64,000 nt of DNA from an uncultured Caryophanales bacterium (GTDB lineage Bacteria; Bacillota_I; Bacilli_A; RFN20; CAG-826): contig CAMJPB010000001.1 in assembly GCA_946407815.1 (NCBI GenBank), positions 558,001-622,000 on the forward strand, in the 5' to 3' direction. The notes beneath the pieces are model-generated. The model saw only the letters and a program-made list of their open reading frames with translations, was not told where the DNA came from and did not search any database. A program made the position numbers and the translations under genes. Numbering within the stretch: position 1 is the first letter of the stretch; each line of letters starts with the position of its first letter. Positions 14,564 to 32,839 of this stretch are shown here, one piece after another.

Positions 14564-14566
14564 ATT

Positions 14567-16006: not shown

Positions 16007-19000
16007 TTAACTAACCACCTTGCTAAATCCATCAAGATTTTCGATATAAATGTAGCCTTCATCATCTTCTAATGTTTGACCGAAAATGTCATTAACATAT
16101 CCATTACTATCTGTGAAGTAAAGGGCAACACCAACAACATTTGATGCTGGGAAGTATTCGAAGTAGACAACATAACTTGTTGCAGTTGTTGGAAGTCCAC
16201 TTTCACCAACACTAACGCTTGTAATAACGGATTCGATTTTTCCGGAATTTAATTCATTGTATGAGAAGTTGAAGATATTTGTGGCTCTTAAGGTAGTGCC
16301 GTCAGTGTTGTAAAGACGTTCAGTAATTGTACCTAAACCGCCATCTTTAAATTCAACAGTTGCGCGTTCATAAATTGCGTCTGAATTTGACCAAGTATAA
16401 ACAGCTTCCCAAGTTGTATTAACAATTGGATCTGAAGCTGGATTTACAACAATACTTAAAGTAGATGGGCCCCATCCTGGTGTGTAGAAATCAGAAACTA
16501 AGTAAGCTTTAATTGTAACTGGGGATGTTAAAGCATTACTCTTATTGGTATTGAAGTTCATTGTTAAGGCGTGGCCTGTTACTTTGTAACAATCTGAATG
16601 TAAACCAAGATCATTATCATCAACGTGAATAATTTCACAATTTTCAACACTGAAGTAATCAGATTTGCCACTGTTCATAATTTGTCCTAATGAATTCTTT
16701 GATTCAAAGACGAAATAATATGAAACTGGAGCACCAGTGTTACTTGATGCATCGATGTAATAAGTCATGGTTTTGCCAGCATAACCAACGATTGTATCGG
16801 CACGTTCATTATTATAAGAATCATAACCAGGTTTAGTGCAATTAACGAAAAGACCATGATAATTACCTGAAGCATGAACTTCGATAGAAATTGTCTTTGT
16901 GTATGCACTATGAGAAGTACCGTTAGTGAAGGACATTGTTGTTGTACCAACACCAATAGCGGCTAAACGGTTATATTCGTTAAGACCAATAATGTGCTTG
17001 TTTTCAGCTGCATCAAATTGACATTGCCATAAGTCTAAAGCGGTGTCAGGTGTATAAAGTACTTCTTTAACAACTGGGTAATATTTACCTTCGTTTAAGT
17101 ATTTAACAATACCAAGTTCATCACCATAAGCAACGTGAGATTTCTCGCTTGTTTCGCTTACAGCGGTATTGTCGTTATAGAACTTGAGGTAATTAATTTG
17201 TGAAATGAAGTAATCATTAACATCAAAATCACCTAAGGTTGCAGCATTTTCATTAACTTTGTTGTATGAATTTGTAATTTTGATTGTTGTAGTAACTGAA
17301 GTTCCAGCTGGTTGGTGATTTGTGAAATCCCAGTTATTCTTTTCATAGAATTCAGCTTTGTAATCCATTGAATAAAGATCGCCATTTGTTAAGAATCTGA
17401 ATTCATTTGAATAAATGGTTGCGAATTGTTGTGTGACATCTGCGGTAGAACCACTTTCAACGTGATTGTATTCAAGTTGAGATGAAACAACAGTTCTAAA
17501 TCCGCCTGCCATAGGTGTTGAAGTAACTGTGATGTGACTTCCTTCTGGATTTGCAGCATTAATGACGGCAGTTCCATCGAAATCGCCACGATGTGATTCA
17601 TAAATTTCATATTCTAGGACTGAACCAACGTGAGCAGCAGCATTAATGTTTGCTTTTGCTTCTCTACTTGTGATTTCAGTTCTTGAAGTGTTGTTATAGA
17701 AGCCATCTGGAACGATGTCTAATTTGGCAGAGAAAGGTTTATAGTAGTCGCCTTCTTTTCCTCCATAAGGATTTAAGCTCCATACACGGTCATCTTCTTC
17801 GTTATTGCCTTCAATGTGAGAGCCATTAACGACACGTTTTGTGTATGTATTAACGACACTATAGATGTTTGTAGCTTCATCGATGTCTTTATAGACATAA
17901 GAAACTTTTGAATTTAAATTGTCAGTTGCTTTAGCAAATGAACGAGTCTCGCTGATCTTTTTGTAATCATAAGTGACGTTCATTCTGGTTAAGCCAGCTT
18001 CTGAATTGGTTGCATCAGTAACCTTTTCGTAGTGAATGCCAGTTAAACCTTGTGGGTGAATTGTGCTTTGAGATCTCATTCTACCTTCAAATAAGGCATA
18101 GATTCCTGCACCATTGCTTGGTAAAACATCAACTGATTTTCTAACGATGTAGCAATTGAAATCATTGACGTTGGTGTCATAGTAGAAGTCATATGTACAA
18201 CCGCCAGCGATTGAGAGTTTATTTAAACTTGAACCAGTGTTGAAAGTAACGTTAGCGTCGCATCTTGTTTCATCTAATTGAGTTGAATCAAGTCTAGTAA
18301 GTCCGCCTTCATTATCTTTAACAGCATAGCTGAATCCGTATCTAGTTTGATCACTTGGAACGACAACGTTCTCAGCAACATAGATTCCGTCTCCATCATC
18401 ATCCTTAAGGATGGCTCCAAAGTCGCCTGTAACAATAACATCTCCGCTTAAGGAAATCTTAATATTAATCCAGACGTCTTCATTTGGCATTGTAAATCCG
18501 AAGACGTTCTCGGAAATTTTGCCAATAGTAACTTGAGCTGATGTTGGGTTTCCATCTAAAGAAACGCCATCATCAAGGCTAACAGTTAAAGTAATTGTTT
18601 CGCCTGCTTCAGCTTCTGATTTTGAAAGGACAGCTGAAACACCGTTAACTGTATTGACTTTAATTTTGTGTGTTGTATCTACTGGTGGAGGTGGGATGAT
18701 TGATTGATCAACCCATTGAGCATATAAAGTGGTGTCTTCAAGAATTGTCATTTTGCCTTTTGCAGCATAATTTGTGCCACTACCATCTGCTTTTGTATTC
18801 CAAACAGTAAAGATTTGGCCTGCTGGAGGTGTAAATGTACATTCTTCAAGAGTGACTTTGTTACCTGCAACATAATCATTATCATCGATGATTGAGCCAG
18901 TTCCACCATTTGGGTCGTAAGTTAAATGTAAATATGTAACTTGAGGTGCTTGGCCAGTAACTGTTACTGCGCATTGAAGTAAAGTATCACCAATAACAGC

Positions 19001-19309
19001 CTTAATTGTTGCACTTCCGGCTTTATTAGCAGTTACAGTGCCGTCATTAACAGAAACAACTTCAGCATTTGTTGAACTCCATGTAACAACGTCACTAGCA
19101 GAAATGCCTTCGACAATTAAAACATCACTTTGACCAACTTCTAATGAAAGACTTGTTTTATTTAATGAGTATGAAGTTTGAACATTTTCTCCTCCATTGT
19201 TATTGTTACCTCCATTAAATATCGACATAATGTCACAAGAAGTAAGTGAAATAGCGCCTGTGAGAAAAACTCCAGATAACGCTAAGATTTTAAGGAAATT
19301 TTTACGCAT
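16007..19309 (-). CDS. Large lipoprotein with Big2 and Listeria-Bacteroides repeat domains
   Basis: 1100 residues. Lipobox LTSC with Cys25, then a short Asn/Gly linker. Residues about 46-117 form a bacterial Ig-like Big2 domain (LSLEVGQSDVL, VTWSSTNAEVVSV, GTVTANKAGSATIKAVIG). About 126-200 is an InlB-type B repeat (LTYDPNGGTGSI through TTLYAQWVD). A further beta domain follows (IKVNTVNGVSAVLSKSEAEAGETITLTV), then several hundred residues of unassigned beta-rich sequence and two possible Ig-like regions near 730-950. Such modules mediate adhesion or glycan binding at the surface. A strong AGGAGG SD precedes the ATG. It has no catalytic motif. Confidence 0.85.
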   Translation of the reverse strand: MRKNFLKILALSGVFLTGAISLTSCDIMSIFNGGNNNNGGENVQTSYSLNKTSLSLEVGQSDVLIVEGISASDVVTWSSTNAEVVSVNDGTVTANKAGSATIKAVIGDTLLQCAVTVTGQAPQVTYLHLTYDPNGGTGSIIDDNDYVAGNKVTLEECTFTPPAGQIFTVWNTKADGSGTNYAAKGKMTILEDTTLYAQWVDQSIIPPPPVDTTHKIKVNTVNGVSAVLSKSEAEAGETITLTVSLDDGVSLDGNPTSAQVTIGKISENVFGFTMPNEDVWINIKISLSGDVIVTGDFGAILKDDDGDGIYVAENVVVPSDQTRYGFSYAVKDNEGGLTRLDSTQLDETRCDANVTFNTGSSLNKLSIAGGCTYDFYYDTNVNDFNCYIVRKSVDVLPSNGAGIYALFEGRMRSQSTIHPQGLTGIHYEKVTDATNSEAGLTRMNVTYDYKKISETRSFAKATDNLNSKVSYVYKDIDEATNIYSVVNTYTKRVVNGSHIEGNNEEDDRVWSLNPYGGKEGDYYKPFSAKLDIVPDGFYNNTSRTEITSREAKANINAAAHVGSVLEYEIYESHRGDFDGTAVINAANPEGSHITVTSTPMAGGFRTVVSSQLEYNHVESGSTADVTQQFATIYSNEFRFLTNGDLYSMDYKAEFYEKNNWDFTNHQPAGTSVTTTIKITNSYNKVNENAATLGDFDVNDYFISQINYLKFYNDNTAVSETSEKSHVAYGDELGIVKYLNEGKYYPVVKEVLYTPDTALDLWQCQFDAAENKHIIGLNEYNRLAAIGVGTTTMSFTNGTSHSAYTKTISIEVHASGNYHGLFVNCTKPGYDSYNNERADTIVGYAGKTMTYYIDASSNTGAPVSYYFVFESKNSLGQIMNSGKSDYFSVENCEIIHVDDNDLGLHSDCYKVTGHALTMNFNTNKSNALTSPVTIKAYLVSDFYTPGWGPSTLSIVVNPASDPIVNTTWEAVYTWSNSDAIYERATVEFKDGGLGTITERLYNTDGTTLRATNIFNFSYNELNSGKIESVITSVSVGESGLPTTATSYVVYFEYFPASNVVGVALYFTDSNGYVNDIFGQTLEDDEGYIYIENLDGFSKVVS

Positions 19310-19324
19310 AAATTTCTCCTCCTT

Positions 19325-20194
19325 TTATTTAAATAAAAACATGTCATAAAGACCGTCATTATAATAAATCATGATAATATCAAGAGTTACTGAAACATAC
19401 ATTCCAGTAAATGTTCTTGCGGTTGCGCTTGTCTCTTGGTTAAGCTCCATATCGTAGAAGTAATAATTAAAATTATCATCAAACATGGCTGTTTTTTTAC
19501 AATTTTTACATTCAAATTCGATATAAGTGTTTTCAAAATCATCATCTGATGTAGAAACACCAATTAGTGGATCTTTAGATGTGAACGATAAAGTGCATCC
19601 ATAGTAAAGACCGCTAAATTTTGGAGTGCTAAATAACTTTTTAGCACAGGCTTCTGGTGATTTAGCATTTCTAACTTTTATTAAGGTTCTAAGTACGAGC
19701 ATTTCGTTTGAATCGTATGCTGTAATGATTGCGTCACCTTGTAAAATTGTTTTGATAATAAATCCAGTAGAACCTGCTTCTCTTTGGATTTGAGCAACGG
19801 TTATATCATCACTATAAACAGTGTAATTTGTGTCTAAAGTTGTGCTTGGTTTGAAAGCAAAAACATAACTTGAGTTTGCTTCGAGGGCACGGCCAATTTG
19901 TGTTTCGACAAATGCACCACCGACGCTTCCATGAACAATGACGTCACAAGTTTTATGTGTGAAGTCATCTTCTTCCTCTTCTTCTTCAATCTCAACGTCG
20001 TTTATATCGATAACAGTTGTTGGGTCAACAAATGTGTCTGGAGTAGTAGGGGTTGGGCTTGGAGTTGGAGCAGGAGTAGGATTATTTTGTTGTTCACGAT
20101 TAAAAATACTGAGAATATTTTTGAAATCGAAATTACATCCTGAAAGAACCATCATCATCGCAATTAATGAACTAAACAAACAAGACTTTTTCAT
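19325..20194 (-). CDS. Lipoprotein of unknown function with acidic linker
   Basis: 289 residues. The signal peptide ends LSGC with Cys20. A Pro/Thr linker (PTPAPTPSPTPTTPDT, about 38-54) and a very acidic stretch with six consecutive Glu (about 66-77) separate the anchor from a roughly 200-residue beta-rich domain. The domain contains SYVFAFKPS, a CxxC (CKNCKKT) and TSATARTFTGMYVSVTLD near the end, but no family is recognised. It is the first gene of the four-gene operon, with an AGGAGG SD and its own promoter (20226-20261). Confidence 0.75.
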   Translation of the reverse strand: MKKSCLFSSLIAMMMVLSGCNFDFKNILSIFNREQQNNPTPAPTPSPTPTTPDTFVDPTTVIDINDVEIEEEEEEDDFTHKTCDVIVHGSVGGAFVETQIGRALEANSSYVFAFKPSTTLDTNYTVYSDDITVAQIQREAGSTGFIIKTILQGDAIITAYDSNEMLVLRTLIKVRNAKSPEACAKKLFSTPKFSGLYYGCTLSFTSKDPLIGVSTSDDDFENTYIEFECKNCKKTAMFDDNFNYYFYDMELNQETSATARTFTGMYVSVTLDIIMIYYNDGLYDMFLFK

Positions 20195-20225
20195 AACTCC
20201 TCCTAAATACTATTAGTATTAATAG

Positions 20226-20288
20226 CGAGCAAATAATAACATTATTTATTTACTATTGCAAACAATACTGAACTAGGCTATGCGTATG
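20226..20288 (-). promoter_or_regulatory. Promoter of the lipoprotein operon with a candidate activator site
   Basis: Minus strand -35 TTGCAA (20256-20261), 17-base spacer, -10 TATTAT (20233-20238). About 17 bases upstream of the -35 box is CATACGCATAG (20278-20288). The same 11 bases occur, in the other orientation, in front of the large collagen-like lipoprotein gene. Confidence 0.6.
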
Positions 20289-20329
20289 TATGTTAAATTT
20301 TCATTCTCTTTTTTGGAGAAAATTCCATC

Positions 20330-20372
20330 AAAAAACCAGGCCGCTTTTTGATTACGACCTGGCCTTTTTTTA
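20330..20372. terminator. Bidirectional terminator after the collagen-like lipoprotein gene
   Basis: Stem CCAGG-CCG / CG-A-CCTGG with a 10-base loop, A6 on the left and T7 on the right. It separates the 24784 transcript from the next operon promoter. Confidence 0.85.
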
Positions 20373-20407
20373 CTCAGCTAAATTTTGAGTTTTAATATAA
20401 ATATTAA

Positions 20408-23400
20408 CTATTCAGCATTTGCAACTGAGACAATGCTCATTGTATTAGCTGTAAAGTCAAGATTAACTGTGTAAACTTTGCCGCCTTTTGTAACTGTAAC
20501 AATCCAGTTGTTGGAATCGCCTTGATTGTTAACAATTGTAACACTGCCATCATAAGAAGCGCCGGTGTTAACAGCGAACATTAAGTCTTTACCAGAAATG
20601 CTAACGGTGTCACGGAATCCTTGGTAATGATTACAAAGGAATACAGTGCCATCTTCAGCAATTGTACAGAGCATTTTGCCACCAGTAGTTGTTAATACGC
20701 CATCGCTATAACCGGTAATTGTTTTACCGCTTGCTTTGGAGTCTTCACCAACTAATGATTCATTAAATGATGCTCTATATGAACTGTTAGTAATGTCAGA
20801 TCCGGTTTTAACTTTTCCGAGTGTGGAACTCATCATGTTGTAACCAACATATTTGCCAACAAAGACTGTAGCGTCAAGGTATTTAATGTAGACTTCTGTG
20901 TCTGCTGAGATACCGTTTGAAAGATCAACAGGATTTTCAAATGTGCTTTCAGCAAAGTAACCTTGAATGATATATCCATCTTTATTAAAAGATGACATAT
21001 CTGGAGCAGTATTTGGTTTGAGAGCCATGACAACTGTGTCGTTATCAGCGTGAACTGTAAGATTTACAGCTGCGACCCACTTAGCATAAAGTGTAAGACC
21101 TTCTGAGGTCATAACTGTACTTGGATCAAATGGTGTGTCACAAGTTGCTTCTAAATACCAACCATCAAAAGCGAATCCATCTCGTGCTGCAGGATCTGCT
21201 GGGTCAATAACATAACCGACACCAACCTGGTGAACGACTGCGGTTCCGCCTTCGTAGTTAGGATCTAAAGTTAAATTAGCACTTGCTGGAGCAGCAATAC
21301 TTAAGTTGTAGACGAAGCCACAATCTGGTTCGTAATAAGTACTATCTTGTGTAAATGCAAACTTCAATGTATCGCCAGCTGCAACAATGACTGTAGCAGG
21401 TGCATGATATGGAGTAGCATTTGGATTTCCATATGAAGATGAGGCTTTGCCTTTACCATCAATGATGAGATTACCATTTTTGTAAATTCTTAAGTAATCA
21501 TATCCAGATTCACCAGCTGTGAACCAATCGAATGAAACGACTGCGTCTGCTTTGAATTTAACGCTGATTGTGGAAGCTGTATTGGAGTGGTAGTTACCAG
21601 ATTTCATACCTGTATAAGTAACACCATCAATTTCTAATGTGTCCATCTTCCAGGCATAAACTCCGCCTTCCCAAGTAATTTCATCAATGAATTCTTCATT
21701 TGGATCGAATGAATCGAACCAGTTTGCTGCAGAGTTGGCATATTTGCCTTTTAACCATTTAGCGTAAATTTCAACGCTTTCAACGTTTGCTTCTGCAACG
21801 TATGGAGTTTCACATGATGGATCAGTGAACCAACCTAAGAATTCAGCACCTTCAAGTGTAACTTCTGGAGGTGTCATGATTTCATCAGCGTGGAAAATAA
21901 TTGTTTCAGTTGTATCTTGTTCAGTTAAATTCTTGTGAACAATTAACTTATAGATGTTGACAATCTTTGCGTAAACATCGCCGTCAGTGGTCATTTGAGC
22001 AACTGGTTCACCATCAAATTGAGGATTGGTATACCATCCTTCAAATTGTTGATTTGCAGGAACTTCTGGTGTTGGTAAGACAACTGCATTACCAACACGA
22101 AGGGTTGTAGATGTAGCTTCATCACCGATGTGTGCTGTAACGGTGAATGTTGGTCTAGAAACTTCAAATGAATCACCAACTAATGTAACGAATGCATTAC
22201 CTGCAACCTTATCTTCGCCAAAGACGAATACGTTATTTTCTCTTCTCCAAACGATATCTGGATCAGTGTAAGAAGTGTCTGTATAAACGTGACTTGAACC
22301 ACTGTAATCATCGTGGACCCAGCATCCTTTATCTGCATCATAATTCATGGTATACCATGAGCTTGAAGCTCTATAGGATGTGACTGTCTTTCTTTCTGAA
22401 TATTCAACAAATGAATAGACGCCAGAACTATCTTTTGTAGCTGTGATTATTTCACCATCGAGACTGATTGTTGAATTATCACCATAGACCTTTAAGACAT
22501 GTGATTCACTATCGGTGTAAACACCATAATCATCTGCAACGCTTAAGCGTTTGATTTGTGTTGTGATAACATTACCGAATTCGTCTTTAACACAAATGTC
22601 TTTTCCATATGTATCAGCTGCAGTACCAATGACAAAGTCATTGTCTAATGATGAAACTGAAACATTTTTGTAGAATGTATCACCGAAAATACAGTAATTT
22701 GTAACTACGCCATCACGGTCGATAGAGAAGATTCTACCTTTATTATTTGCGACTGCGCCTGTATTAGAAATAGCTGTATTGAAGATGAATTTATTTTCAC
22801 TTGATGAAGGTTGTTTTCCTTTGACAAAGGCATAGAAGTCATCATCAAGACCCATTGCTGAAACACCAATAATCATGTCATCAATGACATATAATTTATC
22901 GTTTGTGCCAGTAACAATTAAGCAACCGTCATCATCAATTCCTGAAACAGTACCATTGTAAGTACCACTCATAACTCCGCTTGGAGTAATAGTTAATGAT
23001 GCTGCGCGGTTTTCGCCGAAGTTATAACCATAAATATTTGAACCGCCATAGCTTCCGCAATAGGTAGGTGCGTCTGTCCACTTACAATAAATAATTGTGT
23101 CTCTCTTAATTGGAGTTGTGATGTCAAATTCGAATCCTGCTGCGCATGAAGGAGCGACAAAGAAACCACCAAATAATTTTTCATCATCGACTGGTGTTTC
23201 GATATCTAATGTACCGTTATGAGCAACACTGATGATTATATCATCAGCACCTGGAGACATATCAACGATTGTAACTTTGTGAGCAACTACCCATTTTGCG
23301 AATAATGTGCAGCTTGCATCAAAGGTTGCAGGTGCAGGAACTGTACATGCTGCATCGCTGAACCAACCATCGAATATATAACCAGCTCTTGTTGGGGTTG

Positions 23401-24784
23401 GTAATGTAACGCCTGTTCCACTCCAAATTGTTTGTTGTGTATCGGCATCACCATTACATGAATCAAAATTGACAACTACAACACTTGGCATATGATCGTT
23501 ATCAACTACATCAAGTGGTACGTTCATCTTTAATTCTGTAACGGTAGCTTGGTCTTCGCCGGCTTGTCCAGAACTATCTTTTGTGAAGCTTAATGAACCT
23601 TCGGAATTTGCTTCATCGAATGTAAATTCTCCATCACGGTCTTGACCAGAAGGTGTTCCGAGTCTAGTTCCGTTAATGTTACATGAAGCACCAATAGTTG
23701 TTGCGGTACTGAAGTAGTCATATAAGGTACTAGAACCTTCACCAGATGCGTGAACGTGGAATGAAACTGTTGCGCCAGCAATTAAAGACTTAATCTTTAA
23801 TGTTGAGCTACTGCTATGAACACCCTTGTTTCCTGATTTCCATGTGCCAGTGGCAGCATCGTAGGTCCAAGGATATGTTGCGTCATTAATAATTTCATAG
23901 AATCCATCAACGCTTGTTTCTCCGATTTCGAAAGAAACGAAACCTGGTAATGTAGCATCTTTGTTTTCATGTGCTCCACATTCACTACAAATACGTTCAA
24001 TCTTACCTGTTTCTGAATTATAGGTCCAATCGCCACTGTGTCCGGCTTTTGGCATATTTGCTGCTAATGTTCCATCAGCAACGCCCTTAATCCAGTCAGC
24101 TTCTGTGCCTGAATAATGTGGGTAATATTCCATGAAAATTTCAAATGCAGATTTACCTTCTGCACCATTCTCACCTGGATCACCTTGAGCACCCGGTGTG
24201 CCTGGGGCTCCGTCAGAACCAACGGCTGAGACGCCTGTTGAAACTCCGTTAATCCACCAGCAATTATCAATACCAATTTCAATTGTTGGGGTTTGTCCTG
24301 GAGCACCCGGGGCTCCATCAGAACCTTTTGCGGAAACATTAGTTACAGTTCCGTTAATTACCCAATAACCATCATCGTTAATGCTAATTGAAGGGGTCTC
24401 TCCTGGATTACCGTCTTTACCATCTTTGCCTTGAGCAGAAATTGATGTTACGACTCCATTAATAACCCAGAAACCATCATCATTGATACTGACTGTTGGG
24501 GTTTCGCCTGGATTACCGTCTTTACCATCTTTGCCTTGTGCAGAGATATTGGTTGCGGTTCCATTAATGACCCAATAGCCATCTTCATTGATGCTAATAG
24601 TTGGTGCTGCACCATCTTCGCCCCTAGGGCCTTGTGCTGCAATACCTGTGTCTGTACCAGCTACCACCCAGTTTCCATTTTCACCAATTGATGGTGATAT
24701 AGCACTTGTCAATTCAGAACAACCAGACATGCCTAAAACAGACAACATAGCAATGATTGGTACAGCAAAACTTTTCTTTGCCAT
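20408..24784 (-). CDS. Giant lipoprotein with collagen-like and Listeria-Bacteroides repeats
   Basis: 1458 residues. Lipobox GMSGC with Cys22. Residues about 37-210 hold four to five tandem repeats of roughly 33 residues, each a Gly-x-y collagen-like piece (GKDGKDGNPGETP) followed by ISINDDGYWVINGxxT. Then comes GKSAFEIFMEYYPHYSGTEADWI, a segment often seen after such repeats. Five or six InlB-type B repeats (marked by FDGWF, FGGFF, FEGWY, FLGWF and FDGWY, each ending YAKW-like) lie at about 430-570, 890-1040 and 1200-1320, separated by beta-rich domains. This is a surface adhesin-like fibre, not an enzyme by any visible motif. It has its own promoter region and an AGGAGG SD. Confidence 0.87.
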   Translation of the reverse strand: MAKKSFAVPIIAMLSVLGMSGCSELTSAISPSIGENGNWVVAGTDTGIAAQGPRGEDGAAPTISINEDGYWVINGTATNISAQGKDGKDGNPGETPTVSINDDGFWVINGVVTSISAQGKDGKDGNPGETPSISINDDGYWVINGTVTNVSAKGSDGAPGAPGQTPTIEIGIDNCWWINGVSTGVSAVGSDGAPGTPGAQGDPGENGAEGKSAFEIFMEYYPHYSGTEADWIKGVADGTLAANMPKAGHSGDWTYNSETGKIERICSECGAHENKDATLPGFVSFEIGETSVDGFYEIINDATYPWTYDAATGTWKSGNKGVHSSSSTLKIKSLIAGATVSFHVHASGEGSSTLYDYFSTATTIGASCNINGTRLGTPSGQDRDGEFTFDEANSEGSLSFTKDSSGQAGEDQATVTELKMNVPLDVVDNDHMPSVVVVNFDSCNGDADTQQTIWSGTGVTLPTPTRAGYIFDGWFSDAACTVPAPATFDASCTLFAKWVVAHKVTIVDMSPGADDIIISVAHNGTLDIETPVDDEKLFGGFFVAPSCAAGFEFDITTPIKRDTIIYCKWTDAPTYCGSYGGSNIYGYNFGENRAASLTITPSGVMSGTYNGTVSGIDDDGCLIVTGTNDKLYVIDDMIIGVSAMGLDDDFYAFVKGKQPSSSENKFIFNTAISNTGAVANNKGRIFSIDRDGVVTNYCIFGDTFYKNVSVSSLDNDFVIGTAADTYGKDICVKDEFGNVITTQIKRLSVADDYGVYTDSESHVLKVYGDNSTISLDGEIITATKDSSGVYSFVEYSERKTVTSYRASSSWYTMNYDADKGCWVHDDYSGSSHVYTDTSYTDPDIVWRRENNVFVFGEDKVAGNAFVTLVGDSFEVSRPTFTVTAHIGDEATSTTLRVGNAVVLPTPEVPANQQFEGWYTNPQFDGEPVAQMTTDGDVYAKIVNIYKLIVHKNLTEQDTTETIIFHADEIMTPPEVTLEGAEFLGWFTDPSCETPYVAEANVESVEIYAKWLKGKYANSAANWFDSFDPNEEFIDEITWEGGVYAWKMDTLEIDGVTYTGMKSGNYHSNTASTISVKFKADAVVSFDWFTAGESGYDYLRIYKNGNLIIDGKGKASSSYGNPNATPYHAPATVIVAAGDTLKFAFTQDSTYYEPDCGFVYNLSIAAPASANLTLDPNYEGGTAVVHQVGVGYVIDPADPAARDGFAFDGWYLEATCDTPFDPSTVMTSEGLTLYAKWVAAVNLTVHADNDTVVMALKPNTAPDMSSFNKDGYIIQGYFAESTFENPVDLSNGISADTEVYIKYLDATVFVGKYVGYNMMSSTLGKVKTGSDITNSSYRASFNESLVGEDSKASGKTITGYSDGVLTTTGGKMLCTIAEDGTVFLCNHYQGFRDTVSISGKDLMFAVNTGASYDGSVTIVNNQGDSNNWIVTVTKGGKVYTVNLDFTANTMSIVSVANAE
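24225..24655 (-). repeat. Tandem 99-base repeats coding the collagen-like region
   Basis: Near-identical units with a 99-base period, each with GGATTACCGTCTTTACCATC (plus strand), code for the 33-residue units. The two central copies are the most alike, as expected of recent duplication or unequal exchange. Confidence 0.75.
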
Positions 24785-24866: not shown

Positions 24867-24929
24867 TATACAATTTTATATAAAGACAGGTGCAAAAGTA
24901 AAGAAAAAAATGCTAAAAAACTGCTTACA

Positions 24930-25018
24930 AGTAGTTAATTAGTAGATTTTTAGTAGTTTTATTTTGACTAATTTGTAGAAAAAAACCCTGGAATTCCCGG
25001 GGATTTTCGTTATTTTTG
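24930..25018. repeat. Composite intergenic element, copy 2
   Basis: AAGTAG-TTAATTAGTAG-ATTTTTAGTAG-TTTT on the plus strand, then AAAACCCTGGAATTCCCGG and GGATTTTCG. Same layout as the elements at 12900 and 35045. Confidence 0.5.
24979..25006 (-). terminator. Terminator of the glycan locus (after the Nudix gene)
   Basis: Minus strand CCC-CG-GGAATTCC-A-GGG followed by TTTTTTT directly after the Nudix gene. It is a copy of the dispersed quasi-palindrome. Confidence 0.7.
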
Positions 25019-25453
25019 TAAGTCTTTCACAATCTCTAGATTTCTTTTTGACATCTTTGTGGGTAGAGAACCTAGATTATAGAACTTTAGATTTTTGACC
25101 TCTTCGAGTTGAGGTTTTATTGCACCTGAATACTTTTTACAAAGATAAACAAGATCAACTCCATAAATCTCATCACCATTGAAATATTTATAATAAGTAA
25201 CTTCACCTGTATAGACTTTGAAGAACTCAAGGTCTTCTGCTATTAAACCTGTTTCTTCAAATAGTTCTCTCTTAGCAGCGTCTTCGCCGCTTTCTTTTAA
25301 ATCTATTCCACCACCAGGAAAGTCAAAATAACCATCATCAGCTCTTTCTTCTAAAAGAACTTCGCCTTTATCATTAAAAACGACTACTACTGAATGCGCT
25401 AAAAGAAGCGGCATGTGATTAGTTCTTTTGCGAAGCTCTTTTACGTAATCCAT
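25010..25453 (-). CDS. Nudix hydrolase
   Basis: 147 residues. The Nudix box is intact: GGGIDLKESGEDAAKRELFEETG (about residues 46-68), fitting GX5EX7REUXEEXGU. Such enzymes hydrolyse nucleoside diphosphates linked to another group, such as nucleotide sugars or damaged nucleotides. The gene begins one base after the stop of the epimerase gene (TAA-T-ATG) without an SD, so it is co-translated with the XRE-epimerase. A role in trimming a UDP-sugar pool is therefore possible but is inference. Confidence 0.88.
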   Translation of the reverse strand: MDYVKELRKRTNHMPLLLAHSVVVVFNDKGEVLLEERADDGYFDFPGGGIDLKESGEDAAKRELFEETGLIAEDLEFFKVYTGEVTYYKYFNGDEIYGVDLVYLCKKYSGAIKPQLEEVKNLKFYNLGSLPTKMSKRNLEIVKDLQK

Positions 25454-25454
25454 A

Positions 25455-26783
25455 TTAGTTGTCTTTTCTCCAAACCATTTTGTTGACTACACCAACATAG
25501 GATTGAATAAGTTTAATAACTTTATCAGATACATTAGTATCTACATAATTATCAACTGGTTTACATCCTTCTTTATTGTTAACGGCAACTTCAACAGCTT
25601 GAAGCAAATTCTTTTCATCAATTCCTGCTAAAACAAAGCATGCTGAATCTAAAGCTTCTGGTCTTTCAGTTGATGTACGAATGCAAACTGCTGCAATTGG
25701 TTTATTAATAGATGCATAGAAGCTTGATTCTTCTGGCAAAGTGCCTGAGTCAGAAACGACACAGAAAGAATTCATTTGTAAGTTGTTATAATCATGGAAA
25801 CCAAGAGGCTCATGCATAACAACTCTTTCATCTAATTTGAAACCAGAAGAAACAAGTTTCTTTCTACTTCTTGGATGGCAGGAATAAAGGATTGGCATAT
25901 CATATTTTTCAGCCATCTTATTAATTGCATTAAACAAGGACGTAAAGTTCTTGTCGGTATCAATGTTTTCTTCTCTATGAGCAGAAAGTAGAATGTATTT
26001 TCCTATTTCTAAATGAAGTCTATCTAAGATATCACTAGATTCAATTTCTTTTAAATTTGCTGTTAAAACCTCCGCCATTGGTGAGCCTGTAACATAAGTT
26101 CTTTCCTTTGGAAGTCCGCAATCAGCTAAATATCTTCTAGCATGCTCGCTATAAGCGAGGTTCACATCAGAAATAATGTCAACAATGCGTCTATTTGTTT
26201 CTTCAGGCAAACATTCATCTTTACATCTATTGCCAGCTTCCATATGGAAAATTGGAATGTGAAGACGTTTTGCGCCAATTACTGATAAACAAGAATTTGT
26301 ATCGCCTAAAACTAAAACTGCATCTGGTTTAATCTCCACCATTAATTCATAAGATCTAGCAATGATATTACCCATTGTTTGACCTAAATCTGCTCCAACG
26401 GCATTCAAATAGACATCAGGATCAGCAATGCCTAAATCTTTAAAAAAGACACCATTAAGGTTGTAATCATAGTTTTGGCCAGTGTGGCAAAGAACAGTGT
26501 CAAAATACTGTCTAGATTTATTAATTACCGCTGCTAAACGGATAATTTCAGGACGTGTTCCAACAATAATCAATAACTTAATTTTGCCGTTATTCTTAAA
26601 ACCTTTGAAATCTTCTGTCGTGAATTTGACACATTCATTCTTTTTTAGGTTTTCGACAATTTTATCATTCACTAAATTATCATTTTCATATCTCTGATAT
26701 GTTCTTAAAGAAACTCCTAATTTATTAGCAGCTTCTTGTTGGGTTAACCCAAGTTTTTTTCTTAATTCGTGCAAATTTTCCAT
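25455..26783 (-). CDS. XRE helix-turn-helix fused to a CapG/FnlC-type UDP-N-acetylglucosamine-like 2-epimerase
   Basis: 442 residues. Residues 1-57 form an XRE DNA-binding domain (LRKKLGLTQQEAANKLGVSL, then RTYQRYEND). From about 68 a full WecB/CapG-family epimerase follows: IVGTRPEIIRLA (73-84), GDTNSCLS, HMEAGNRCKDECLPEETNR and SDSGTLPEESSF. The GNR variant of the usual EAGLR motif is that of CapG/FnlC, which converts UDP-2-acetamido-2,6-dideoxy-talose to UDP-L-FucNAc. CapE and CapF homologues are encoded nearby, supporting this pathway. Without the head the length (about 375) equals CapG. The head may make the enzyme a self-regulating DNA-binding protein; this is inference. The promoter appears leaderless. 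Confidence 0.88.
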   Translation of the reverse strand: MENLHELRKKLGLTQQEAANKLGVSLRTYQRYENDNLVNDKIVENLKKNECVKFTTEDFKGFKNNGKIKLLIIVGTRPEIIRLAAVINKSRQYFDTVLCHTGQNYDYNLNGVFFKDLGIADPDVYLNAVGADLGQTMGNIIARSYELMVEIKPDAVLVLGDTNSCLSVIGAKRLHIPIFHMEAGNRCKDECLPEETNRRIVDIISDVNLAYSEHARRYLADCGLPKERTYVTGSPMAEVLTANLKEIESSDILDRLHLEIGKYILLSAHREENIDTDKNFTSLFNAINKMAEKYDMPILYSCHPRSRKKLVSSGFKLDERVVMHEPLGFHDYNNLQMNSFCVVSDSGTLPEESSFYASINKPIAAVCIRTSTERPEALDSACFVLAGIDEKNLLQAVEVAVNNKEGCKPVDNYVDTNVSDKVIKLIQSYVGVVNKMVWRKDN

Positions 26784-26818
26784 GTCTTAAGTTTATGACA
26801 TTTATACGTAAAAGACAA
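26784..26818 (-). promoter_or_regulatory. Promoter of the XRE-epimerase gene with TACGTA operator candidate
   Basis: -35 TTGTCT (26813-26818), 17-base spacer, -10 TAAACT (26790-26795), six bases to ATG. The spacer holds TTTACGTATAAA (26801-26812), one mismatch from the TATACGTATA core found before the CapE fusion gene. Confidence 0.55.
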
Positions 26819-26823
26819 GATTT

Positions 26824-26850
26824 AAAAAAAGCACCAGTACAACTGATGCC
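26824..26850 (-). terminator. Terminator of the flippase-GT4 gene
   Basis: Minus strand GGCATCAGT-TGT-ACTGGTGCT followed by TTTTTT, beginning at the stop codon of the gene. Confidence 0.8.
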
Positions 26851-29099
26851 TAATTTTCTGGATGTTTAGATTCTGAAATATATCTATCAATAACTCTTCT
26901 AGCAATTTCACTCCAAGGGATTGGAATTGTCTTAGAAGCTTGCTCTCCAACTTCATCCATTTTATTGGAATCATATATTTCATTTATCTTCTCACACATT
27001 GAATCAACATTATTCTCTGCTAAGTATCCATTTTCATTATCTACAATGATTTCAGCAGCTGTTGATCCTCTTACGAGCAATGCCGGAAGTTTGGCTAATG
27101 CTGCCTCCCTAACAACAAGTGGAGCATTGTCGTAAAGTGATGGGAAGAAGAAGATATCGCATAGTTCATATAAACCAAATAGTGCTTTTCTGCTCTTAAT
27201 TTTTCCAACGAAAGAAACTTTATCGTTTATACCGATTTCAGAAGCATATTTTTTAATTGCTTCTTCATCATAGCCGGTTCCAACAATAATTGTATGATAT
27301 TTATCGTCCTTTTCACATAGAGCTTTTGTGGTGTCTAAAACGAGTTTTAAGTTCTTATGCCATATTTGTTGACCAACAAATAATAGAAGGCGCTTATTAG
27401 AAGGAATATTGCAGTGACTCATCGCCTCTTTTTTAAAATCTTCAACGTTTCCTTCAGGCATATTTTCAACACCGTTTTCCATTACACCAATAGGCCCGTT
27501 AAAGCCGTATGATTTTAATGTTTCACCAGTAGATGCACTACAAGCCCAAACTCTATCAACCCTACGATAGAAATAGCAAATGTATTTGACCATTATGGAT
27601 GCCAAAATCTTGCTGTGTGTTAAATGTAAAGTATCATCATAGTATTTACTATGGAATGTTGTAAAAACAGGGATTTTACGTCTTCTGAAATATTTCTGCA
27701 TCATTTGTCCCAGAATCATTGGAGAATGAATATGAACAACATCAAAATGCTTAGAAGCTATATATTTCTTTGCTTTTCTACCTAAGAAAGGCTTAACGGA
27801 ATCAAACGGGATTCCTGGAACTTTGAATTTAGGTAATCTATATACTTCGTAAGGTAAATTAGAATCATCAGCACCATCTAAATCTGGAACGATTACAACT
27901 GGGTGATGACCCATTTTAACGAATTCTCTAGCATATTGATCAACCGTTCGAACAACTCCATCTATAACCGGGAAGAAGTTATCACACACAAGCGCAATAT
28001 TTAAAGGCCTATCCGCAGGAACTTCTTTTCTGTGCATGTAAGAGTTTTTAACTGAACTTCTAAGAACAACTACCAAACCAATAATGATCCATGAATAGTA
28101 AACTAAAGCTCTCCAATAAAGCATTGCCCAGAATAAGGCACCTGCAGGAAGAGCTCCAAAGACTAAGAAGAATGATGTCTCGGCAGCACCAGAATTTCCT
28201 GGGGTTGGAATAATTGTGATTGCGAGATAAATATAAACAGTAATAACAAAGTTAGTCCACCAATCAACGCTTCCACCGAATGCCTTAATTGCAAAATATG
28301 GAATTGATAAAATAGCGAATTGATATACAAAAGACCAGAACATTGTTGGAATCAAAAATGTTGGTCTTCTAATAGCTTGTTTAATTAAGTCAACGTATTC
28401 TTTAATACCATTTAAAGTTCTGTCATGAGCCTTTTCATAGTCTTTGACTATTCGCATCTTTTTCCCAAGTTTCAAAAAGCCAATAATTAAAGCGTTAATT
28501 GGTTTTGGGAACAGGGCAAAGGCAATAACTAGCAATGGAAAGAATGAGTAAAAGCCTAAACCGATATAGGCCATAACCTTAACAGCAGTAACTGCTGAAG
28601 GAATCTCGACTGTTGATGGTGAAATGATTAAAACTAAAACAGCAATTACGATAAAGGCGATTTGTTGTGACAAGAAACCGCTCATCGTAATACTAGTAGA
28701 GGCTCCGCCTGTGTATCCTCTTTTGTGTAAGAAGTGAATTTGGAAAGGCTGACCGCCTGCACCTAAAGGTGTGATATTATCGGCGTACTTACCGTAAGTA
28801 GCGACCTGGAATGACCCTCGTCTATCAAGACGACCGCATCCTGAAAGAATAAGGTTACGATATTTCATGTATTCAGCAAATAAAGCTGCGCCAAAAACAA
28901 CTATACCAAGTAGAGTAAAGATTGGATTTAAACTAGAAATCTCTAATTTTGATGGCTCACCTTTATTGTTTGTTAATTCTCTAATTACAATAAAGGCGAC
29001 AATGCCTAAATTTAACAAAATAACTAAAAGAAGAGTTATTAATCGACTCTTTTTCTTCTTTTTAGTATCTATTTCTTGAACCTTGTTATCGACTTTCAT
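26850..29099 (-). CDS. Fusion of a flippase-like (LPG-synthase TM) domain with a GT4 glycosyltransferase
   Basis: 749 residues. Residues about 18-350 have eight or more membrane segments of the lysylphosphatidylglycerol-synthase transmembrane/UPF0104 family, with the conserved TPLGAGGQPFQ (110-120) and PTPGNSGAAE (298-307). From 364 a GT4 glycosyltransferase begins (LNIALVCDNFFPVIDGVVRT), with FTTFHSKY, LLFVGQQIWHKNL and FFFPSLYDNAPLVVREAAL; the first acidic residue of the EX7E motif is Asp. The family includes glycolipid synthases of Mollicutes and Firmicutes. A cytoplasmic transferase tied to a polytopic membrane domain could build a glycolipid and help move it. The acceptor is unknown. No SD is seen. 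Confidence 0.88.
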   Translation of the reverse strand: MKVDNKVQEIDTKKKKKSRLITLLLVILLNLGIVAFIVIRELTNNKGEPSKLEISSLNPIFTLLGIVVFGAALFAEYMKYRNLILSGCGRLDRRGSFQVATYGKYADNITPLGAGGQPFQIHFLHKRGYTGGASTSITMSGFLSQQIAFIVIAVLVLIISPSTVEIPSAVTAVKVMAYIGLGFYSFFPLLVIAFALFPKPINALIIGFLKLGKKMRIVKDYEKAHDRTLNGIKEYVDLIKQAIRRPTFLIPTMFWSFVYQFAILSIPYFAIKAFGGSVDWWTNFVITVYIYLAITIIPTPGNSGAAETSFFLVFGALPAGALFWAMLYWRALVYYSWIIIGLVVVLRSSVKNSYMHRKEVPADRPLNIALVCDNFFPVIDGVVRTVDQYAREFVKMGHHPVVIVPDLDGADDSNLPYEVYRLPKFKVPGIPFDSVKPFLGRKAKKYIASKHFDVVHIHSPMILGQMMQKYFRRRKIPVFTTFHSKYYDDTLHLTHSKILASIMVKYICYFYRRVDRVWACSASTGETLKSYGFNGPIGVMENGVENMPEGNVEDFKKEAMSHCNIPSNKRLLLFVGQQIWHKNLKLVLDTTKALCEKDDKYHTIIVGTGYDEEAIKKYASEIGINDKVSFVGKIKSRKALFGLYELCDIFFFPSLYDNAPLVVREAALAKLPALLVRGSTAAEIIVDNENGYLAENNVDSMCEKINEIYDSNKMDEVGEQASKTIPIPWSEIARRVIDRYISESKHPEN

Positions 29100-29166
29100 T
29101 CAATATACGCTTATAAAAGCGATATTATTTTAAAACATTATAGGTGTTAATGCAAAGTATTATACT

Positions 29167-30270
29167 TTATTGCACATCTACAGGCTCTCTAAATGTATCT
29201 GGAGTGTCATCTGAGTAAACCTCTGAGATCCACATTAGAGTTTTAGAGTTTTTAGTGCCTATATTTTTTATGTCATGAGTATGATAAGGAGTGATATTGA
29301 CATTAACAGACTTGTCTCCGTCTTGCTTGTATTCAACAATTTCAGTTGATCCAATCTTTCTTAATCTTGTAACACAGTTACCTTCTACTGTCATGAAGAT
29401 TTCATTTTTGTAAGTGTGGTAATGACCGCCTTTTAAGATGCCTGGATAAGCAAAATTCACGGAAATTTGCCCATATTTTTTGTTTTTATAGATCTCTTCG
29501 AAGTATCCTCTTTGGTCTTCCGCGTAATTATATGAATAGGAATCATCCTTTAAATAATCAAGGAATGAAATAAAGAGCTTAACTTCAAATGGGCTATGTA
29601 AAGTTGGAAGATGTTCATCACTTTCAACCGAAGCTTTAAATCCTTTTAATAAGGAAGCAAGGTTCCCTAATGAACAATCATGAATTGGTGAGACAGAAAG
29701 AATTTCTTTTGAAGGAGAAATATTTCCTTTTATACATTCCACGAATGTATTTACAATATCATCAACGTAGTTATAGTGGACAACATAATTTGGATCTCTA
29801 ATTTCAATTGGAAGATCATGAGCTATATTGTACATAAATGTTGCGGCTGCACTGTTGTAGTTTGGTCTACACCACTTGCCAAAAACGTTAGCAAGTCTAA
29901 ATACATAAACTGGAAGGCCAGAATTGAGTAAATAATCTTCACCCATTTTCTTGGATTTTCCATAGTCGTTATCTAGTGCTGCTTGAGTTGAACTGGACAT
30001 GATTATTGGGGTATTTTTACCGAAAATCCCCAGGAAATCCACCACTTTTTTTGTAAAATTGGTATTTCCGTCGTAAAATTCTTCAATTGTTAAAGGTCTA
30101 TTGATTCCAGCTAAATGAACAATGAAGTCAGCTTCCTGAATGTAAGCTTTTAAGTCTTCTTCTGTTTTATCTAAATCGTATGCTAAAACTTCATAACCAG
30201 CTTTTGCTAAAGCCTTAGTCATGTGTTTCCCGATAAAACCGTTTGCGCCTGATACAAGGATTTTATTCAT
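29167..30270 (-). CDS. CapF/FnlB-type bifunctional reductase (UDP-L-FucNAc pathway)
   Basis: 367 residues from MNKILVSGANGFIG, equal to CapF. N-terminal SDR domain with the NAD(P) motif GANGFIGKH (8-16), the reductase step; C-terminal cupin domain with GGHYHTYKNEIF and PYHTHDIKNIG metal ligands, the 3-epimerase step. CapF turns the CapE product into UDP-2-acetamido-2,6-dideoxy-L-talose. The start overlaps the end of the CapE-type gene (ATGAATAA), so they are coupled; a longer frame begins inside that gene and is not used. Around 30011-30056 (DFLGIFGKN) lies a quasi-palindrome copy. Confidence 0.92.
   Translation of the reverse strand: MNKILVSGANGFIGKHMTKALAKAGYEVLAYDLDKTEEDLKAYIQEADFIVHLAGINRPLTIEEFYDGNTNFTKKVVDFLGIFGKNTPIIMSSSTQAALDNDYGKSKKMGEDYLLNSGLPVYVFRLANVFGKWCRPNYNSAAATFMYNIAHDLPIEIRDPNYVVHYNYVDDIVNTFVECIKGNISPSKEILSVSPIHDCSLGNLASLLKGFKASVESDEHLPTLHSPFEVKLFISFLDYLKDDSYSYNYAEDQRGYFEEIYKNKKYGQISVNFAYPGILKGGHYHTYKNEIFMTVEGNCVTRLRKIGSTEIVEYKQDGDKSVNVNITPYHTHDIKNIGTKNSKTLMWISEVYSDDTPDTFREPVDVQ
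30012..30056 (-). repeat. Quasi-palindromic element inside the CapF-type gene
   Basis: Plus strand ACCGAAAATCCCCAGGAAAT then CCACCACTTTTTTTG; codes VVDFLGIFGK. It is a weaker match to the dispersed element. Confidence 0.35.
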
Positions 30271-31456
30271 GTTGTCTAACTGGTCCACCAAATAATTCAA
30301 GTTTCTTTAATAATTTTTCCATACCAGCGACATCAAGTCTACCAGTGTTGTGAGAAGTATAAGATTCACCGATGTTGAGTTTCTTATTACCTTTTGTGAA
30401 ATATTTATCATAGTTTAAGTTTCTGTTATCAGCGGCAACTCTAAAGAAATTACCCATGTCTTCTGCACGAATCATTTCTTCTTGAGTAACTAATGTTTCA
30501 TAAAGCTTTTCACCGTGTCTAGTTCCTATATAGGAAATTCCTGTCTTTGAACCTGTCAAGTTAATAACTGCTTTTGCTAAAACATCAATTGTTGCAGCTG
30601 GTGCTTTTTGGACGAATAAATCGCCTTGTTCACCATGTTCAAATGCATAAAGAACTAAGTCAACAGCATCATCAAGAGTCATCATGAATCTTGTCATTTC
30701 TGGATTTGTGATTGTGATTGGTTTTCCTTCATGGATTTGTTGTAAGAATAAAGGAATAACAGAACCACGTGACGCCATAACGTTTCCGTAACGGGTTAAG
30801 CAAAGAATTGTGTCATCTTTTAAAAGTTGTCTTGAACGAGCGATAACGTTCTTTTCCATTAAAGCTTTTGAAATACCCATAGCGTTAATTGGATAGGCTG
30901 CTTTATCTGTAGATAAGAAAATAGCTTTTTTAACATGATTTTGAACACATGCTGTAATTACGTTATCAGAACCAATTACATTAGTTCTAACAGCTTCCAT
31001 TGGATAGAATTCACAGGACGGAACTTGTTTTAATGCTGCGGCTGAGAAAACATAATCAACGCCTTTGAATGCATCGACAATACTTGAGAGATTTCTAACA
31101 TCACCAATGTAAAATTTAAGTTTCTCATTGTTGTATGCCTTTCTCATGTCGTCTTGTTTCTTTTCGTCACGAGAAAGAATTCTGATTTCTTTAATTTCTG
31201 TATTTAAGAATCTATCAACAACCGCGTGACCAAATGAACCAGTACCACCAGTGATTAATAAAACCTTATCTTTTAAGATTGATGTGTCTTTTGCGGCCCA
31301 CTCTCTTAAAATTTCAATCATTCTTGTGAGCTTTAAATGATCAGCCTTTTCTTCGTCGTTTTCATAAGAAACGTATGTTCTTAAAGATGTCCCAACAATT
31401 TTAGCGGCTTCTTCTTGTGTTAATTTGCAATTTTTGCGAGTTTCTTTTAATGTCAT
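30263..31456 (-). CDS. XRE helix-turn-helix fused to a CapE/FnlA-type UDP-GlcNAc 4,6-dehydratase/5-epimerase
   Basis: 397 residues from MTLKETRKN; this start is set by GAGG eight bases upstream. Residues 1-52 are an XRE domain (LTQEEAAKIVGTSLRTY, VSYENDEE) closely resembling the head of the epimerase fusion. From about 63 an extended SDR follows: ITGGTGSFGHAVV (68-80), the CapE-type catalytic MGISK (Met193, Lys197, in place of YxxxK), TRYGNVMASRGSVIP and RHGEKLYE. CapE makes the first intermediate towards UDP-L-FucNAc. The enzyme part has the normal length (about 335). It is first in a two-gene operon with CapF. A palindrome GTATACGTATAC lies between its -10 box and SD, suggesting control by a DNA-binding protein, perhaps itself. 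Confidence 0.9.
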   Translation of the reverse strand: MTLKETRKNCKLTQEEAAKIVGTSLRTYVSYENDEEKADHLKLTRMIEILREWAAKDTSILKDKVLLITGGTGSFGHAVVDRFLNTEIKEIRILSRDEKKQDDMRKAYNNEKLKFYIGDVRNLSSIVDAFKGVDYVFSAAALKQVPSCEFYPMEAVRTNVIGSDNVITACVQNHVKKAIFLSTDKAAYPINAMGISKALMEKNVIARSRQLLKDDTILCLTRYGNVMASRGSVIPLFLQQIHEGKPITITNPEMTRFMMTLDDAVDLVLYAFEHGEQGDLFVQKAPAATIDVLAKAVINLTGSKTGISYIGTRHGEKLYETLVTQEEMIRAEDMGNFFRVAADNRNLNYDKYFTKGNKKLNIGESYTSHNTGRLDVAGMEKLLKKLELFGGPVRQHE

Positions 31457-31490
31457 ATTTGCACCTCGTATACGTATACATAGTATATCT
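31457..31490 (-). promoter_or_regulatory. Promoter/operator of the XRE-CapE gene
   Basis: Minus strand -10 TATACT (31482-31487), then the perfect palindrome GTATACGTATAC (31468-31479) over the start region, then GAGG (31464-31467) and ATG at 31456. Placement suits a repressor. The -35 box is weak. Confidence 0.6.
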
Positions 31491-31549
31491 TTATATAAAA
31501 AAGTAAAGTAAAAGTGCAAAATTTGCATATTTTTAGATTTTGATGAAAG

Positions 31550-31579
31550 CAAAAGAAAATGTGCCGTCTGGCACATTCT
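31550..31579 (-). terminator. Terminator after the 120-residue membrane protein gene
   Basis: GAATGTGCC-AGAC-GGCACATTTTCTTTT on the minus strand. A second inverted repeat, ATAATTAC-TTC-GTAATTAT (31583-31601), overlaps the stop codon. Confidence 0.75.
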
Positions 31580-31597
31580 CACATAATTACTTCGTAA

Positions 31598-31960
31598 TTA
31601 TTTAGTAGGTTCTGCTGCAGGAGCTTCTTCGACCACTTGAACAGCTTGTTTAACTTCGATAGTTTTGCTGTTTTGTGCTGCAATTCTTTGCTCTCTACGA
31701 ACCTTCTTTTCAACTTCTCTGTCGGCTCTCTTAGCATTGAAGAGTAAGACAATGATTGATAAGACAACGGAAGCACCTAATAAGATTAATCCGAGGTATC
31801 TTAATTCAAAATGAATTGCTTCTTCAAATTCTTCAATGAAGTTGCCGTCACCAGCCATGTGATAACCGATGATTCCAAAGATAATACAAACAAGTCCAAG
31901 GAATGCGATGAAACCACAAACTAGGTACCAAATAAATTCTTTTGTTGTAACTTTTTTCAT
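31598..31960 (-). CDS. Two-span membrane protein of unknown function
   Basis: 120 residues. Two membrane segments (about 9-31 and 54-74) with a short acidic external loop (GDGNFIEEFEEAIHFELR) and a basic, then Ala/Glu-rich cytoplasmic tail (NAKRADREVEKKVRREQR). A good SD (AGGAG) precedes the ATG. It follows the 286-residue unknown gene by 18 bases and is probably co-transcribed with it. No family recognised. Confidence 0.65.
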   Translation of the reverse strand: MKKVTTKEFIWYLVCGFIAFLGLVCIIFGIIGYHMAGDGNFIEEFEEAIHFELRYLGLILLGASVVLSIIVLLFNAKRADREVEKKVRREQRIAAQNSKTIEVKQAVQVVEEAPAAEPTK

Positions 31961-31978
31961 AGGATTCTCCTAAGCTAA

Positions 31979-32839
31979 TTAAGCTTGTGCACCGCCTTGA
32001 TTTTGTTGCATTTTTTGAACTTCTTCAGTGAAGTGTTTCATAAATGCTTCATAGACAGGTTTCCATTCACCTTCCCATTTTGCAGTGTGTTCTCTAGCAA
32101 TCTTCTTAACTGAGATAAACATATCTCCGAAGTTCTTGCCTGCTGGAAGATCTCTACGACCACCAGTCATCTCGATTAATGCAAAGAGTGGGTCAATTAC
32201 TTCGTAATATTCTGCACTTCTTGCGACTGCATTTTCTCTAACGAAATGGAATTGTTTAACTAAACGATTAATATCGTTTTGGATGAAGTTGGATTGGGCT
32301 GTGATAGCACCTTTTGCTTCTTGTCTTGCTTTGTTGTATTCAGCAAATTGATGATCAAGTTCTTCTAACATTAACATATTAACAAGTCCACGATAGAAGT
32401 ATTCTTCCTTATTAAGAACATCTGGGAATGTTGGTTCATCATACTTGTTATCTTTTTGTGCTGCTGCAACATGAGCGGCAATAATCTTACGAACTTCTTC
32501 ATGGATTGGAAGAACAAGTTCAAAGATTTTGATTGCTTGAGAATAGTCGACTCTTAATTCAACACCATCTTGAGAAAGTTTAACGATTGTTGATTCTTCA
32601 GAATAAACATCATTTAAGAGCTCATTGATTTTATCAAGTAAGTTTTTACCTGCTTCTCCAGAGTTCTCTAAACAGTTCTTAAGTGGAGTGTTTTGAGTGA
32701 TTTCTGTTTTAATAATTTCTTTTCTTGCTTTATATGCTTCGACTTCATATTTGTCTTTTTTCATTGCATATTCAAGTGTGTTGAATGTGACAACGTCGAA
32801 TCTAATGAAGCTTGCAATTGCGGCTGTATAATTATTCAT
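31979..32839 (-). CDS. Helical cytoplasmic protein of unknown function
   Basis: 286 residues from MNNYTAAIASFIRFD; the frame is open upstream but only this ATG has an SD (AAAGGATAT). No signal peptide or membrane segment. The sequence is predicted to be almost all helix, charged, with long amphipathic stretches (NKEEYFYRGLVNMLMLEELDH; QSNFIQNDINRLVKQFHFVRE) and a Gln/Gly tail. The number of Asp and Glu residues in helices (including EELDH and RENA) would allow a metal- or partner-binding helical bundle, but no known motif is complete. It pairs with the small membrane protein gene downstream. Confidence 0.65.
   Translation of the reverse strand: MNNYTAAIASFIRFDVVTFNTLEYAMKKDKYEVEAYKARKEIIKTEITQNTPLKNCLENSGEAGKNLLDKINELLNDVYSEESTIVKLSQDGVELRVDYSQAIKIFELVLPIHEEVRKIIAAHVAAAQKDNKYDEPTFPDVLNKEEYFYRGLVNMLMLEELDHQFAEYNKARQEAKGAITAQSNFIQNDINRLVKQFHFVRENAVARSAEYYEVIDPLFALIEMTGGRRDLPAGKNFGDMFISVKKIAREHTAKWEGEWKPVYEAFMKHFTEEVQKMQQNQGGAQA

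Follow-up and report, generated by a model that had tools for sequence, protein, structure and literature searches.

The 64,000-nucleotide stretch of DNA analysed here (the window) encodes, on its minus strand at positions 26850 to 29099, a protein of 749 amino acids in which an MprF/PplT-type flippase-like domain is joined to a GT4 glycosyltransferase. We consider it fairly likely that this protein is an MprF-like synthase-translocase, with the GT4 enzyme replacing the aminoacyl synthase, that makes and exports a membrane glycolipid.

A membrane domain and a glycosyltransferase in one reading frame

The assignment of the two halves draws on the open reading frame, Pfam, NCBIfam, structure models and fold matches. 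The ORF list of the window contains the fusion as one intact frame. Pfam profile PF03706 (LPG_synthase_TM) matched residues 28-341 (28077-29018, minus strand) with 107 bits against a cut-off of 33.4, and the C-terminal part matched PF13439 (residues 379-545) and PF00534 (residues 561-717), both exceeding their gathering cut-offs and together spanning positions 26949 to 27965 of the same strand. The motif PTPGNSGAAE, which contains the invariant E307 of our alignments, lies at residues 298-307 (28179-28208, minus strand). About eight hydrophobic segments were detected by a hydrophobicity scan within residues 1-360 and none beyond. Pfam gave no match in the fusion to the aminoacyl-PG synthase domain (PF09924), and the GT4 domain stands in its place. 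Since eight homologues retain the identical fusion without a stop codon, the architecture cannot be explained as an error of assembly or frame. The fusion is thus confirmed as real, and the preliminary description was right to read the frame as a polytopic PF03706 domain, with its PTPGNSGAAE motif, joined to a complete GT4 enzyme. A model of the full-length protein reached a pTM of 0.54, too low to place the halves relative to each other.

Predicted folds and nearest families of the two halves

Compared with NCBIfam, the flippase half matched TIGR00374 with 55.3 bits (cut-off 43.2), followed by the GlcN-PG flippase model (GpgF) with 52.4 bits, under its equivalog cut-off of 320. This half was then modelled alone from a 19-row alignment (mean pLDDT 77, pTM 0.75). 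Fold search with the predicted model retrieved six MprF structures at Z scores of 16.9 to 20.6, the next chain, which is not an MprF, scoring 6.1; the top match, 9j8s, had a Z score of 20.6 and an rmsd of 3.2 over 238 aligned residues. Foldseek ranks 1 to 6 were likewise all MprF (E 3.5e-4 to 2.6e-3). The likeness to MprF was seen only by fold search; when the flippase alignment was compared with the sequences of solved structures, no useful match came up (best E 0.17). Both E307 and R330 are conserved without exception in the 19 rows, in fused and split copies alike, with a spacing of 23. This is close to the spacing of the gate pairs described for MprF of R. tropici (E280/R304) and S. aureus (D254/R279) in PMC8131360, a correspondence drawn from spacing only. 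An MprF flippase fold is therefore predicted for the N-terminal half, and judging from the models the membrane domain probably moves lipids across the membrane.

The predicted model of the glycosyltransferase half has a GT-B fold, with Z scores of 36.9 to MshA, 35-36 to BshA and 31.6 to PimA. Of the four NCBIfam models closest to it, three are lipid glycosyltransferases (IagA/BgsA, 77.8 bits; GlcNAc-PG synthase, 76.6; MGlcDAG synthase, 63.8), the fourth being BshA (66.2), and polysaccharide-type models came close behind (HpsP, 62.0; TuaC, 60.0). The scores of the named equivalogs are far under their cut-offs (77.8 versus 460 for IagA/BgsA, 76.6 versus 480 for GpgS). GlcNAc-PG synthase was also the best model for the glycosyltransferase halves of G479, G620 and G226 (123, 102 and 94 bits; cut-off 480). 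The window's enzyme carries D657-X7-E665, the usual GT4 form being E-X7-E. We know of no activity for any close homologue; as far as profile matches can tell, this half probably glycosylates a lipid.

Distribution of the fusion and its lipid-gene context

As proposed in the preliminary description, we searched for the same architecture in other genomes. A search of 224 genomes of the family gave 67 with a match at E <= 1e-20, and nine of the 224 encode the uninterrupted fusion: the window's own genome (G000), G341, G446, G479, G481, G212, G480, G367 and G486. Identity to the window's protein is 78% for G341, 73% for G446 and 31-36% for the remaining six. A sample of 392 genomes of the phylum held at least four fusions, all from the same family among the matches listed. 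Most homologues came from the genome search; a contig search with a two-row fusion alignment gave four loci only, one of them that of G212. In six congeners (G226, G338, G340, G342, G345 and G356) the flippase gene is followed by the GT4 gene as its neighbour, the two overlapping by 8 nucleotides in G226, G340, G342 and G356, and in G403, G404 and G405 the pair occurs in reverse order. The matches listed from other families included GT4 proteins of 670 amino acids and alignments that cover both halves but contain a single in-frame stop; further distant, low-scoring fusions may lie beyond those listed. Where ORF maps were drawn, for G082 and G097, the halves proved to be separate adjacent genes. 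The fusion is therefore not unique, and gene pairs and fusions occur side by side.

When the nine fused rows were constrained to a single clade, p-AU was 0.040 in the glycosyltransferase tree and 0.065 in the flippase tree. Well-supported branches forced at least two label changes in the former and at least one in the latter, and each tree had branches flagged as long. On these trees the fusion may have arisen in one event or in several. Two genomes that read TGA as an amino acid (L128 and L131) encode relatives of the GT4 half; both were used in the glycosyltransferase tree, where they group with four fused proteins.

A gene for a PlsC-like acyltransferase directly follows the fusion in five of the nine genomes (G479, G481, G212, G480 and G367). 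It was identified by Pfam PF01553 in G479, the other four being 35-61% identical to the G479 copy, and a PlsC-like gene also follows the unfused GT4 gene of G330. None adjoins the fusion in the window, G341, G446 or G486, so that this part of the lipid context comes from other members. To judge from their sequences, the PlsC-like neighbours point to lipid metabolism. We also searched for PF00884, which we take to be the family of LTA synthases (sulfatase/LTA-synthase superfamily). A match above cut-off was obtained in one of eight genomes (G212) and none in G000, so that a role in making an LTA anchor is hinted at in G212 and not in the window's genome. In G212 (L083, 14964-18381), one of two PF00884 matches lies together with a second, separate GT4 gene 3.6 kb from the fusion. 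In G446, from another genus (L080, 9101-19201), the fusion lies directly before genes for a phosphopantetheinyl transferase and a nonribosomal peptide synthetase of 2407 amino acids with a terminal reductase-like domain.

Gene arrangement around the fusion

In the window the fusion is placed between a CapF-like UDP-sugar reductase gene (29167-30300) and a CapG/WecB-like 2-epimerase gene (25455-26783). Upstream lies the gene for a CapE-like UDP-GlcNAc 4,6-dehydratase (30263-31456) and downstream, one nucleotide past capG, that of a Nudix hydrolase (25010-25453; ORF and Pfam); all are on the minus strand. The likely start of the CapE-like frame is the ATG at 31456, which gives 397 amino acids as in relatives, the ORF list having a longer version from a GTG at 31582. 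The preliminary description had called these flanking genes UDP-L-FucNAc genes. Pfam and NCBIfam, and for CapF the genome search, indeed identified CapE-, CapF- and CapG-like genes, but of the equivalog cut-offs only that of WecB was passed (224 bits for the CapG-like protein, cut-off 210). FnlA, the best model for the CapE-like protein, scored 530 bits (cut-off 730), and the WbcJ-type reductase, the best for the CapF-like protein, 326 bits (cut-off 500). UDP-L-FucNAc is thus the putative product of these enzymes rather than a certain one.

A terminator-like hairpin of 10 pairs is found at the stop codon of the fusion (26829-26851, minus strand). The region 24900-32000 contains 8 terminator-like sites, against a mean of 3.7 (sd 2.1) in shuffles, while promoter-like sites are no commoner than in shuffles. 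The segment upstream of the fusion (29100-29166, minus strand), which has promoter-like hexamers, resembles that of the G341 fusion: the local alignment score is 48, and none of 500 single-base shuffles reached it (best 35). Because the fusion follows capF in the window and capG in G341, the likeness of these regions at two positions suggests that the fusion gene has kept its own upstream region. By eye, the capF-capG spacer is short in G341 and G343, and a hairpin with a T-run is present after capF. The hairpin after the fusion was considered as the old capF terminator, an idea that was dropped since it aligned with the G341 capF-capG spacer only as well as shuffled sequence does (218 of 500 shuffles scored as high).

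Both sugar-nucleotide enzymes next to the fusion carry N-terminal helix-turn-helix domains. Pfam detected HTH_3 (XRE-type) on the CapE-like dehydratase. Its N-terminal stretch is common to all 10 relatives with a complete N-terminus (nine of the same genus, one of the genus of G446) and to G341, with HTH_3 above cut-off in four of six such proteins scanned and just below in two; the stretch is missing from G212, G479 and G481. The XRE-type domain of the CapG-like epimerase is also found in G341, G343 and G345, and is missing from G344, G349, G350, G352, G353, G354, G338, G226 and G446. The helix-turn-helix on the CapE-like protein makes autoregulation by a sugar-nucleotide enzyme possible. BzdR is reportedly an enzyme-derived regulator. 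Further along the window (13004-24784, minus strand), five consecutive genes encode proteins of 289-1458 amino acids with lipoprotein-like N-termini, the one of 1458 amino acids having collagen-like stretches.

Proposed mechanism, donor sugar and alternatives

The preliminary description had also proposed that a single polypeptide couples glycolipid synthesis to a membrane step. This idea gains from the predicted MprF and GT4 folds, the adjacent genes of congeners and the PlsC-like neighbours. In such a synthase-translocase the C-terminal GT4 domain, presumably on the cytosolic face, would use a nucleotide sugar to glycosylate a membrane lipid, which may be diacylglycerol, phosphatidylglycerol or some simple glycolipid. 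Once made, the product would be carried to the outer leaflet by the N-terminal MprF-type (PplT) domain. Being fused would hold synthase and translocase together, congeners having the pair as two adjacent genes. UDP-L-FucNAc would be one candidate donor in this species, UDP-GlcNAc or UDP-Glc being at least as likely.

That the fusion uses UDP-L-FucNAc, making and exporting a lipid that contains FucNAc, is suggested by its position, inside the capE-capF-capG cluster in the window and after capG in G341. It is further suggested by the glycosyltransferase content of the window, in which a profile search of the genome found no other GT4 (PF00534), GT2 (PF00535) or PF02397 gene; no Wzx/Wzy gene was seen there, as judged from ORF lengths and hydrophobicity only. 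The statement that no other glycosyltransferase is present holds for the window but not for the assembly, which has one further GT4 that is not starch/glycogen-synthase-like. Its three PF00534 matches are the fusion, a GT4 of 643 amino acids and a starch/glycogen-synthase-like protein, and that only a single other GT4 accompanies the last of these also speaks for the proposal; PF03706 matched once, and PF00535 and PF02397 gave no match. These absences are weak because the assembly (736,588 bases) is 45.5% complete, which counts against arguing from them to FucNAc. Three GT4 genes form a cluster that is seen repeatedly among congeners (G341:C58, G343:C22, G352:C10 and G349:C8) and was not found in the incomplete G000. 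The wider comparison argues against the fusion as a user of FucNAc. Homologues away from capE/F/G in nearly all genomes had been expected to weaken the link, and seven of the nine fused homologues are so placed, the two exceptions, the window and G341, being of the same genus. In those seven, capF is on another contig or, in G481, about 167 kb off. A capF-like match was obtained at E 1.9e-71 or better in all 23 genomes tested, fused or not, none above the curated cut-off; as the capF control was positive in 11 of 14 well-known genomes, such weak matches mean little. In G343 (97% complete, 7% contamination) the cassette stands at the same metK/hpf site, its CapE, CapF and CapG being 97%, 80% and 93% identical to the window's, but the fusion is lacking; a ZIP transporter gene follows capG. 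That genome has no GT2 or PF02397 match, and five PF00534 matches, four besides the one of glycogen-synthase size. Two genomes, G367 and G349, have a PF02397 phosphoglycosyltransferase gene no more than about 2 kb from capF; in G349 a separate GT4 gene sits between the two. In addition, pduL-metK-hpf is near the fusion in six of seven other cases and near the cap cassette in G341, G343 and G350 (not in the stretches examined of G344, G349, G352, G354, G338, G345 and G226), so that proximity in the window may reflect a shared neighbourhood. Literature searches on a FucNAc-diacylglycerol lipid and on HTH-fused sugar enzymes gave nothing that we carried forward. As a general statement the proposal is not supported, the FucNAc link appears weak from gene positions, and we regard use of this sugar by the fusion as unlikely. 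The retained upstream region and the staying in the cluster in both species are compatible with a FucNAc role but do not require one. It is more doubtful still that the fusion was recruited in this genus as a dedicated FucNAc-lipid synthase-translocase, with the HTH domains of the cluster able to adjust expression to sugar-nucleotide supply; if true, the genus would make a FucNAc glycolipid by a self-regulated route through a single protein.

FucNAc is a usual sugar of capsules and O-antigens, which would fit a GT4 domain working on an undecaprenyl-linked glycan intermediate that the membrane domain flips in a Wzx-like or AglD-like manner. The description of archaeal AglD in PMC5898192, in which PF03706-type (UPF0104) domains are joined to glycosyltransferases, also favours such a role. 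We nevertheless hold it to be improbable: the incomplete own genome has no PF02397 phosphoglycosyltransferase, the locus has no other glycosyltransferase, and the PlsC-like neighbours and MprF fold point to glycerolipids. The membrane domain could alternatively be a mere anchor or regulator that holds the GT4 enzyme at the membrane, the movement of the lipid falling to some other protein. In C. difficile, HexF is described as not essential for HNHDRG production (PMC10128005), and the activity of GpgF in P. aeruginosa is given as unproven (PMC12713373). Both the MprF-type fold predicted for the window's domain and the acidic/arginine pair kept in fused and split copies speak against a mere anchor, to which we give little chance.

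Comparison with known systems

The fusion is best compared with systems in which a transport domain of this kind accompanies a synthase. AglD of Haloferax, which acts in archaeal N-glycosylation and has a GT2 glycosyltransferase, differs in carrying the glycosyltransferase N-terminally and the membrane domain C-terminally. It resembles the fusion in uniting a glycosyltransferase and a UPF0104/PF03706-type domain in one protein (PMC5898192). With MprF, a lysyl/alanyl-phosphatidylglycerol synthase and flippase (PMC8131360), the fusion shares the predicted translocase fold and probably the logic of making the lipid inside and moving it out by one polypeptide; unlike MprF, it has a GT4 enzyme instead of the aminoacyl synthase, and its roughly eight hydrophobic segments leave it without a second transmembrane domain. 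According to PMC11980842, citing the PplT preprint of Hauser et al. (2022), glycosyltransferases are frequent fusion partners of MprF transport domains; the general architecture is thus already in print.

The operons GpgSDF of P. aeruginosa (GlcN-PG) and HexSDF of Clostridioides difficile (HNHDRG) likewise combine a glycolipid glycosyltransferase with an MprF-like flippase (PMC12713373, PMC10128005). GpgSDF, which comprises a GT4 enzyme, a deacetylase and a predicted flippase, is itself likened to MprF (Khan et al. 2025, PMC12713373), and in NCBIfam the models for GpgS and GpgF rank with those closest to the fusion. These systems differ in having three separate genes with a deacetylase, whereas here the two functions are fused, no deacetylase gene is adjacent, and scores are far below the equivalog cut-offs. 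The deacetylase family PF01522 was found in one of eight genomes, was absent from G000 (45.5% complete) and did not occur among the scanned neighbours of the fusion; GpgD belongs to COG3233 (PMC12713373). The fusion and the adjacent gene pairs of its relatives support the idea, unproven for GpgF and HexF, that flippases of this type serve the neighbouring glycosyltransferase, and a synthase-translocase encoded by one gene would lend itself well to testing whether MprF-type domains move glycolipids.
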